Positions 14,767 through 17,334 of a DNA stretch of 52,609 nt are shown here, in pieces. Origin of the DNA: Comamonas denitrificans. Lineage in GTDB: Bacteria; Pseudomonadota; Gammaproteobacteria; Burkholderiales; Burkholderiaceae_C. Made by a program: the position numbers and the translations under genes. A model generated the notes under the pieces. That model had not been told where the DNA came from and did no database searches. It saw only the letters and a list, made by a program, of their open reading frames with translations. Positions within the stretch are counted from its first letter, which is position 1. Each line of letters begins with the position of its first letter. The DNA lies in contig NZ_JAFNME010000022.1 of assembly GCF_017368815.1 (NCBI RefSeq), positions 1-52,609 of the forward strand, given 5' to 3'.

Positions 14767-16665
14767 ATGTGTGGCATCGTCGCGTCTGTCTCGAATCGCA
14801 ACATCGTGCCCCTGCTGGTGCAGGGCTTGCAGCGGCTGGAATACCGGGGCTATGACTCCTGTGGCGTGGCCGTACACCGCATGGTCAGTGGCTCGCCCAT
14901 CAGCCAGGGCCTGGAGCGCACCCGCAGCACGGCGCGGGTGGCGCAATTGCTGGCGCAGGTACAGACCGAGGATTTTCAGGGCCTGACCGGCATCGCCCAC
15001 ACCCGCTGGGCCACGCACGGCGCACCGGCCGTGGCCAACGCCCACCCGCACTTTAGCTACGGCCCCGGCCTGGATGCGGGCAGCGGCGTGCCCGCGCGCG
15101 TGGCCCTGGTACACAACGGCATCATCGAAAACTACGAGGAACTGCGCCGCCAGCTGCAGGCCAAGGGCTATGTGTTTACCAGCCAGACGGACACCGAAGT
15201 CATCGGCCACCTGGTCGATAGCCTGTACAACGGCGACCTGTTCGAGGCCGTCAAAGCCGCCCGCACTGAATTGCGCGGGGCCTACGCCATTGCCGTGCTG
15301 CACAAGGACGAGCCGCACCGCGTGGTGGGGGCGCGTGCTGGCTCGCCCCTGGTGCTGGGTGTGGGGCGCGATGAAAATGAATTTTTCCTGGCCAGCGACC
15401 CCATGGCCATTGCCGGGGTGACCGATCAAATCGTGTACCTGGAAGAGGGCGATTTGGTCGATTTGCAGCCGGGCCGCTACTGGCTGGCCGATAAAACCGG
15501 CCATGTGCTGCTGCCCGAGCAGCGCCCGGTCAAAACCGTGCAGGCCTTCAGCGGCGCGGTGGAGTTGGGGCCGTACCGCCACTACATGCAAAAAGAGATT
15601 TTTGAGCAACCCGATGCCATCGCCAACACCCTGGACGGCATCAGCGCCATCGTGCCGGAGCTGTTCGATGGGGCCGATGGCAACGCTGCCTGGCGCGTGT
15701 TCAAGGACATCGACCGCGTGCTCATCCTGGCGTGTGGCACCAGCTACTACAGCGGCTGCACCGCCAAATACTGGCTGGAGTCGATTGCCGGCATCCCCTG
15801 CAGCGTGGAGGTGGCCAGCGAATACCGCTACCGCACCAGCGTGCCCGAGCCGCGCACCCTGGTCGTCACCATCAGCCAATCGGGCGAAACCGCCGACACC
15901 CTGGCCGCCCTGCGCCACGCGCAAAGCCTGGGCCTGACGCAGACGCTGACCATCTGCAACGTGGCCACCAGCGCCATGGTGCGCGAGTGCAAGCTGCGCT
16001 ACATCACCCGCGCGGGGGTCGAAATTGGCGTGGCCAGCACCAAAGCCTTCACCACCCAGCTGGCCGGGCTGTTTTTGCTGACGCTGGTGCTGGCGCAAAC
16101 CAAGGGCCGCTTGACCGAGGCGCAAGAGCAGGACTATTTAACCGCCATGCGCCACCTGCCCATGGCCCTGCAGGCCGTGCTGGCGCTGGAGCCGCAAATC
16201 GTCAGCTGGGCCGAAGACTTCGCCAAGCGCGAAAACGCCCTGTTCCTGGGCCGGGGCCGCCACTACCCGATTGCGCTGGAAGGGGCGCTCAAGCTCAAAG
16301 AAATCAGCTACATCCACGCCGAGGCCTACCCGGCTGGCGAGCTCAAACACGGCCCGCTGGCGCTGGTCGATGCCGCCATGCCGGTGGTAACCGTCGCGCC
16401 CAACGATGAGTTGCTGGAAAAGCTCAAAAGCAATATGCAAGAAGTGCGCGCGCGCGGCGGCGTGCTCTATGTGCTGGCCGATGCCGACACGCACATTGAA
16501 AGCGCCGAGGGCCTGCATGTGATTCGCATGCCCGAGCACTACGGGGCGCTGTCGCCCATCCTGCACGTGGTGCCGCTGCAATTGCTGGCGTACCACACCG
16601 CCGTGGCCCGCGGCACCGATGTGGACAAGCCCAGGAACCTTGCCAAGAGTGTGACGGTTGAATAA
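14767..16665 (+). CDS. glmS: Glutamine--fructose-6-phosphate aminotransferase GlmS
   Basis: GlmS makes glucosamine 6-phosphate, the entry step to peptidoglycan and lipid A amino sugars. The product begins MCGIVASVS, so Cys2 becomes the N-terminal nucleophile after Met removal. The glutaminase domain has THGAPA and [14 protein letters not shown]. Two SIS sugar-binding domains follow ([45 protein letters not shown]). The end is [20 protein letters not shown] ribosome binding site fixes the start at 14767. At 632 residues it is slightly longer than the E. coli 609, partly from a loop after [11 protein letters not shown]. The last twelve codons use codons unlike the rest (AGG, CTT, AGT, GTT). A second copy of that end lies 156 bp downstream. 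Confidence 0.97.
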
Positions 16666-16785
16666 CCGTCGCGCTCTTGGGGGCGCGTAGTGCCCCGCCG
16701 CAGGCGCAAGGTTGATGGGCTTGCGGCGTAAGCTCATGTCGGCGTAGCCGACGTGAAGCTGCGTAGCAGCGTGCTGGAGCCACAA
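16666..16785. other. Hairpin-rich insert between the two glmS 3' ends
   Basis: This 120-base stretch separates the present glmS stop codon from a second copy of the glmS end. It holds three hairpins with a GTA loop: GGGGCGC/GTGCCCC (16680-16696), CATGTCGGC/GCCGACGTG (16735-16755) and GCTGC/GCAGC (16758-16770). A further stem CGCAAG/CTTGCG (16705-16725) lies between them. No gene is seen. It is best read as the residue of an inserted element. Confidence 0.6.
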
Positions 16786-16821
16786 CCGCGCAATTTGGCC
16801 AAAAGCGTGACGGTGGAGTGA
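16786..16821 (+). pseudogene. Displaced second copy of the glmS 3' end
   Basis: These 36 bases translate as [11 protein letters not shown] followed by TGA, identical to the last eleven residues of GlmS that end at 16665. Twenty-five of 36 bases match and every difference is synonymous (or TAA versus TGA). This copy uses codons typical of the window (CGC, TTG, GTG, GAG), while the joined copy does not. It is therefore probably the original gene end, cut off when a foreign segment brought a replacement end. Confidence 0.75.
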
Positions 16822-16859
16822 GGGGCAGTACTGCTGCTGGTTTTGTTCGATTGAGGTCT

Positions 16860-17096
16860 GCTGGCCGGGTTTCGCCCCGGCGGGCGACTGACTTTCTTGC
16901 ACGCGCAAGAAAGTCAGCAAAGAAAGCGCTGCTGCGCAGGCTTGGGCGCTGTGGAACTCACTTCGCGCCTGCGGCGCTACGTTCAGACAGCCACAGCAAG
17001 TCAGACGGGAGGCGCTTTGCGCTATCTAACCGCTGTGCCTTGATGGATGTGCTGTTGTGCAGGGCTTCTTCGCTTGCTACGCAGTTTCAAAAGGTG
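16860..17096 (-). repeat. GC-rich interspersed repeat, copy B
   Basis: The element runs opposite to copy A: GCTGGCCGGG, then CCCCGGCGGGCGACTGAC, the palindrome TTTCTTGCACGCGCAAGAAA (16893-16912), CTTCGCGCCTGCGGCGC, GTCAGACGGGAGG, and ends near CTTCGCTTGCTACGCAGTTTC. Its interior is the most diverged of the four copies. With 16666-16821 before it and the flagellin remnant after it, it fills the gap between glmS and aceE. The bases 17097-17169 show nothing recognisable. Confidence 0.85.
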
Positions 17097-17169
17097 CAGC
17101 CCAGCCAACTGCGTATGCCTATCGTGGCGTTATTTCGCTTGGCGCTCTGCTTCGCTGGCCTGCTGGTCA

Positions 17170-17334
17170 ACCAACCAAAACCTCTCTGCCGCCCGTGGGC
17201 GCATCGTGGATGCCGACTTTGCCAAGGAAACCGCCAACCTGGCACGCGTGCAAATCCTGCAACAGGCGGGGATGGCCATGGTGGCCCAGGCCAACCAGAT
17301 TCCGCAAAACGTCTTGCAGCTGCTGCAAGGCTGA
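17170..17334 (+). pseudogene. fliC: Flagellin 3' remnant
   Basis: The frame reads [20 protein letters not shown], then [14 protein letters not shown] and a C-terminal [10 protein letters not shown] before TGA. This is the conserved C-terminal D0 domain of bacterial flagellin, about 54 codons. A complete flagellin has several hundred residues with a matching N-terminal D0 domain, which is absent. Upstream the frame continues into unrelated DNA and the GC-rich repeat copy B. The reading frame of the remaining part is intact, so the loss may be fairly recent. It lies 14 bp from the convergent aceE stop codon. Confidence 0.85.

Follow-up and report, generated by a model that had tools for sequence, protein, structure and literature searches.

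A 157-bp hairpin element at the 3′ end of glmS in Comamonas denitrificans, a probable member of a family of protein-free, gene-end-replacing elements of Betaproteobacteria

The 3′ end of glmS is a known landing site of Tn7 and of some islands; Tn7 itself leaves the gene end in place. Replacement of a gene end has been described for the mobile ORFs of fungal mitochondria (Allomyces, Glomus), where the insert supplies a new C-terminus and the native end stays downstream (PMC3630166). The bacterial element IS608 inserts 3′ of a word that stays behind in its left flank, and its cut sites are paired by guide bases located at a hairpin foot (PMC5934647). Here we describe a locus of Comamonas denitrificans that shares features with each of these systems, located in a stretch of 52,609 nucleotides (contig NZ_JAFNME010000022.1, termed “the window” below); the whole genome amounts to 3.0 Mb, spread over 74 contigs. 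A search of open-access papers returned no description of such elements.

The double end of glmS and the element between

The initial annotation of this DNA had noted two in-frame, synonymous 3′ ends of glmS lying 156 bp apart, and sequence comparison bears this out: the present end (V1, compared over 16630-16665) and the downstream end (V2) have 25 of 36 bases in common and encode the same 11 residues plus stop at an offset of 52 codons. In a six-frame translation of the window, the peptide NLAKSVTVE occurs at these two places only. The annotation had also described the joined end as rich in rare codons, which holds against the rest of glmS, where AGG accounts for 0 of 37 arginines, CTT for 0 of 70 leucines, GTT for 0 of 56 valines and AGT for 1 of 31 serines. 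Its description of the downstream end as typical applies to CGC (32/37), AGC (22/31) and GTG (38/56), but not to TTG (10/70) and AAT (3/13), which are scarcer in the rest of the gene. What it had missed is that the sequence between the two ends is complementary to V1 and that ACAA precedes both of them (16625-16628 and 16782-16785). Because ACAA stands to the left of V1 as well as of V2, the unit can be delimited as running from V1 to CACAA, with a probable entry behind GACAA. These 157 bp (16629-16785) are the complete element itself and not a scar.

The fold of 16625-16785 comprises two domains, domain I and domain II (D2), whose parts are listed in Table 1. It beats each of 200 dinucleotide shuffles, with a z-score of -7.6 as DNA and -8.4 as RNA, so that the arrangement is not a product of chance. 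In D2, a stem containing a three-by-three internal loop is accompanied by two hairpins, and CACAA forms the tail.

Table 1. Features of the glmS gene end and of its element in the window.
Feature	Position	Strand	Basis
glmS, completed by the element	14767..16665	+	ORF; Pfam SIS E 1.7e-52 and GATase_6
Left flank GACAA, a target- or cut-site-like word	16624..16628	+	sequence; GANAA is the usual left word elsewhere
V1, the present glmS 3′ end and left part of the element; its codons are foreign to glmS	16629..16665	+	pairs with the arm 16706-16723
Core hairpin: last glmS codons pair with bases after the stop, loop GAAT	16643..16680	+	fold
Pair of mini hairpins separating the core hairpin from the arm (approximate borders)	16680..16706	+	fold
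Arm complementary to V1; terminal TTG complementary to left-flank CAA	16706..16723	+	fold; covariation in relatives
D2, conserved right-end domain	16723..16785	+	R1 covariance model (built partly from the window sequence itself), 74.5 bits, E 9.4e-19
Right-end word CACAA, echo of left-flank GACAA	16781..16785	+	sequence
V2, displaced, probably native glmS end	16786..16821	+	33/36 bases equal to genus consensus

Two further features lie downstream. A dispersed repeat (GGTTTCGCCCCGGCGGGCGA...) starts right after V2 (window 16853-16900 and beyond) and has at least 18 further matches in the genome (40 of 82 candidates scored). A flagellin remnant at 17170-17325, placed between glmS and an opposite-strand pyruvate dehydrogenase E1 gene, consists of the C-terminal region only (Flagellin_C, E 2.9e-17), and its open frame begins in other sequence.

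Units at glmS in related genomes

The relatives suggest which of the two ends was there first. Of the 53 genomes in the genus, 26 relatives that have no D2 unit (among them G018, which has a plain tandem copy) were combined into a consensus, with which V2 agrees at 33 and V1 at 28 of 36 bases, individual relatives ranging from 29 to 36. In another genus, G056 bears no unit, and its glmS end opens with the codons of the first displaced end of G276 and, except for one base, with those of the displaced end of G193; in G276 itself, the displaced ends further along show slight differences from the first, and G344, the third member of the G056/G276 genus, has another version of the end. The fit of V2 to the consensus and the agreement of G056 with G276 suggest that V1 is probably the newcomer and V2 the native end. 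In G039, which carries a unit, the glmS end is nearly equal to that of G030, which carries none, and V1 therefore need not be foreign there.

In the genus, 53 genomes were searched and the glmS end was read in 32, six of which have a unit: the window, G015, G039 and G013 share one broad type, and G037 and G033 have another. G015 and G037 are 95% alike in the gene body (last 210 bp before the junction), and their units, being of different types, are 63% alike; read by eye, the unit of each is followed by what is left of a unit of the other type, and then by the same flank. Units also occur in arrays, with 4.1 perfect tandem copies of 121 bp in G013, six glmS ends 137 bp apart in G276, and four ends with three units of alternating type, each fitting its own arm, in G087. 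Across the family, the glmS end pattern was found in 382 of 399 genomes with two or more matches in 37, among which some are second glmS copies or lie on other contigs (G147, G340), the double match of G147 being a second glmS. Between the different genera of G033 and G276 the unit is 93% alike and the glmS body 81%, an order found in only 15 of 438 cross-genus pairs. The foreign V1 next to a native-like V2, the patchy and differing units in close relatives, and the greater likeness of unit than of gene between G033 and G276 make it likely, from comparison of sequences, that the elements are mobile.

Some glmS ends show repeats of other kinds. G018 (locus L034) has a plain, perfect 37-bp tandem duplication of the glmS end with no D2, possibly an excision footprint. 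Direct repeats such as AATTAAAGTCGTAAACA begin shortly behind glmS at five loci (L014, L017, L020, L288, L308), and another repeat is found at L301; repeats of the AATTAAAGTCGTAAACA type seem to shorten some units and have the look of the termini of a transposon that inserts at glmS.

The initial annotation had explained the double end by a mobile element that entered the glmS 3′ end with its own version of it and was later lost. Entry with an own end, leaving the native end downstream, agrees with our findings. The entry of a larger element through a site-specific recombinase, followed by its loss, is not supported: relatives have the same compact unit, single or in tandem, and D2 stands behind other genes. 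It had further suggested looking in relatives for an island between the two ends. Six glmS loci have 1.7 to 9.4 kb between the ends, and 11 ORFs from five of these gaps (G088, G323, G307, G275 and G311; 1.7 to 5.3 kb) were scanned, with no integrase among them. Three of the 11 had no match. The others are ordinary genes, coding for DUF6624, TPR and regulator proteins, a chemotaxis receptor, a beta-lactamase-fold protein, a carbonic anhydrase and an Xre/MbcA/ParS antitoxin domain, besides one IS110 transposase. The glmS units themselves, with 69-137 bp behind the stop, are too small for an integrase gene. Although V1 looks imported and V2 native, as the scar of an island would have it, the same compact unit in many species, D2 at other genes and the absence of an integrase from the 11 scanned ORFs led us to reject a lost island, which we consider highly improbable.

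The pairing of gene end and arm was followed in 31 glmS units, one per genome, selected by hand. The selection excludes loci without a unit, G088 (interrupted), G159 (contig end), G193 (run of N) and the shortened units of G113, G224, G325, G187 and G344. All 31 encode the same 17-letter peptide. In 26 of them the own gene end folds best with the own downstream part, beating the ends of all other units, and 19 are never equalled by 200 position-wise codon reshuffles (mean z over the units -3.0); the window is a moderate case, its own end being equalled by 5 of 30 foreign ends and by 7 of 200 reshuffles. When 112 distinct glmS ends were classed by a fixed rule, the codons GTC GAA TGA came last in 24 of the 29 ends that form a stem with a downstream arm, in 4 of the 17 intermediate ones, and in 8 of the 66 that form no such stem, several of these eight lying beside a shortened unit. 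The same codons terminate none of 35 hand-picked native-type ends from 33 genomes (G010 and G016 counted twice, G018 with its plain tandem copy), and it is the rule-based 8 of 66 that we rely on. The glmS end and the arm thus covary.

A conserved right-end domain behind many genes

A D2 covariance model made from 12 sequences matches 62 of 150 genomes of the family (E 1e-3; 36 candidates scored per genome) and, at class level, 2 of 274, both of the window's genus (E 1e-4; 19 candidates scored in each). An exact 29-base pattern was found in 95 stretches of named genome contigs; the titles among the matches listed (80 of 95) are Burkholderiales, Gallionellaceae, Rhodocyclaceae, Thiobacillus and the like, with some unresolved. 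In an alignment of 109 distinct D2 sequences that was fitted to the structure, 98.0% of the pair cells are standard pairs, and two-sided changes number 272 against 65.5 in shuffles, none of 500 shuffles reaching 272. We regard both the D2 family and its covariation as firm. Rfam gave no match for window 16500-17300 at E up to 1 and none at gathering score for seven other loci, so a known structured RNA family was rejected.

According to Pfam, the genes upstream of D2 include groES, metK, ftsW, a branched-chain amino acid permease and an ornithine carbamoyltransferase (argF-like), the metK and ftsW models each matching 4 of 49 upstream proteins. Two lists of 84 D2 loci, chosen by hand from the match tables and mostly one per array, were used for the position of D2, in which 8 loci of the frame-distance test and 6 of the gene-end copy test lie too close to a sequence end. 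D2 stands at most 100 bp behind the end of a same-strand open frame in 66 of 76 matches, compared with 24% of random positions; for the opposite strand the figure is 43 of 76, a weak control in GC-rich DNA. A downstream copy of the gene end exceeds the 99th percentile of shuffles at 34 of 78 loci, and no clear copy is seen at 44.

Plasmid and phage records, each searched with one glmS unit as query, gave no match, and one viral contig (L277) carries D2. This D2, at 2186-2243, has a minimal left hairpin, lies 184 bp from the end of the nearest same-strand open frame found (upstream) and shows no clear gene-end copy. Minimal units of a short hairpin and D2 also occur in three genera upstream of an opposite-strand gene that, judged by eye, is lepA (L138, L149, L151), with no evident duplicated gene end.

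The borders of the units follow a common pattern. The right word is ANAA at 72 of 84 D2 loci, TT stands directly before D2 at 71 of 84, and the left word at loci other than the window is usually GANAA. A clear stem is seen at 60 of 84 loci and not at the other 24; among these 60, the left-word N is complementary to the first base of D2 in 57 and identical to the right N in 43, where base counts predict 23. Between the first base of D2 and the right N, a Watson-Crick pair can form in 50 of 72 cases, and a pair of either kind in 59 of 72 when G-T is included. Cut-site-like words at both borders, with guide-like pairing at the hairpin foot, are present as a pattern in the sequence. Odd border words are mirrored at L255, L219 and L247, and not at L234, L214 and L207. 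In addition, 48 of 49 junctions inside open frames fall behind the second codon base; the background for GANAA in the same codon phase is 62-72%, and a true phase preference of the junctions is possible, though partly background and not leaned on here.

The loops are equally uniform: 140 of 168 triloops in D2 and 74 of 87 in the glmS units are GNA, and 27 of 38 tetraloops are CGAATG. Loops of the GNA and GAAT types are exceptionally stable in DNA. The loop types therefore favour a folded DNA strand as the acting form, as far as sequence can tell, and are still compatible with a role as RNA.

Possible origins and known systems compared

The elements share one anatomy, their D2 recurs behind many genes, and matching words stand at both borders. 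We consider it probable that they form a family of small, protein-free hairpin elements of Betaproteobacteria that replace gene ends, and that the 157 bp of the window are a complete member. On this reading, the insertion point in glmS would have been immediately behind GACAA. The first 37 bases of the element would replace the gene end and pair with the element's own arm, D2 would close the element and end in CACAA, and the native end would be pushed downstream. The element may move as folded single-stranded DNA, cut behind ANAA words that the arm's TTN would recognise through base pairing, as the guides of IS608 do, by an enzyme presumably acting in trans. A bolder version, which we put forward tentatively and with some doubt, makes it a protein-free homing element. 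The folded single strand would bear a synonymous copy of the gene's last codons together with an arm complementary to that end; guided by the arm to alleles of that gene in other cells which lack the element, it would enter behind GAN-AA, displace the native end and take over the reading frame, and a new lineage for another gene might arise when that gene's end is copied back on itself. If this were true, a nucleic-acid guide made of host coding sequence would direct its own insertion.

Two other explanations were weighed. The units could be structured RNAs at mRNA 3′ ends, acting in stability, termination or regulation, selected gene by gene and spread by homologous recombination, with the copied ends as by-products. 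Strong covariation, a position mostly behind stop codons, orientation with the gene, and a gene end that forms part of the fold would all suit such an RNA; yet it does not account for ANAA standing at each border, for native-like ends that have been displaced or for the tandem arrays, the D2 of the viral contig lies 184 bp from a frame end, and the loops, mostly GNA or GAAT, are not the tetraloops typical of RNA, which makes this explanation unlikely. Alternatively, with no dedicated mobility, template switching during replication at palindromes might have copied the gene end once in inverted and once in direct orientation, with tandem duplication later. It would account for the direct-inverted-direct arrangement, for the plain duplication without D2 in G018 (L034) and for the perfect or near-perfect arrays in G013 and G276. 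However, D2 keeps a conserved sequence at unrelated genes and in different genera, an outcome that local copying does not give, and we regard template switching as decidedly improbable; simple tandem duplication was rejected on the same ground.

As to a possible mover, the borders recall those of elements moved by Y1 transposases: a guide-like TTN lies beside the hairpin foot, the ANAA words resemble cut sites, and the layout is that of IS608 (PMC5934647). Y1_Tnp (PF01797) was matched in 22 of 27 genomes. Some of these are without D2, however, and no match was obtained in G150 and G159, the genomes with the most D2 matches (at least 18 and at least 15; 36 candidates scored per genome). Nor was D2 found at 30 Y1 loci, where the best match had an E of 0.019. 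That the units are non-autonomous IS200/IS605 or REP/RAYT members is thus quite unlikely, and RAYT/Y1 was rejected as their mover. Other palindromes, not D2, occur at two of four Y1 loci searched for them; those at the transposase loci L160 (1383-1449) and L161 (1009-1083) are of the TTGGGGTCAGATTCCAATT type and distinct from D2. Reverse transcriptase (PF00078, RVT_1) was matched in 9 of 23 genomes and was likewise rejected, as no match was found in D2-rich G196, in G000 or in G013. The mover is possibly a host function or a lost enzyme.

There is a real chance that these elements deserve a class of their own. If so, bacterial repeats would be rewriting the last codons of housekeeping genes without damage, and which synonymous codons stand at the ends of genes would tell of a mobile element rather than of the host. 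How a gene-less repeat finds one place in one gene becomes testable, with natural pairs of DNA guide and target at hand. In practice, work on Betaproteobacteria that deals with codon usage, glmS insertion sites or 3′ UTRs can be led astray by such elements.

Compared with known systems, the units resemble IS200/IS605 elements, as exemplified by IS608 (PMC5934647), in the word of the left flank, the word at the right end and the guide bases 5′ of the hairpin foot. They differ in having no room for a Y1 gene, in the absence of a Y1 match from G150 and G159, in a left part that is a gene end, in a single arm that serves both borders, and in words that read ANAA. With the REP and BIME palindromes of RAYT systems they share small size, palindromic structure and a position behind genes at many loci; unlike these, they are multi-branched, reach into coding sequence and often duplicate the gene end, and whereas REP repeats flank the RAYT gene, D2 is absent from the 30 Y1 loci. 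Tn7 and islands use the same end of glmS as a landing place, but the unit described here has neither a transposition gene nor an integrase gene. The mobile ORFs of fungal mitochondria carry an endonuclease ORF, for which our units have no room, and here the new end is one half of a hairpin; the outcome is alike, a new C-terminal end with the native end downstream (PMC3630166).
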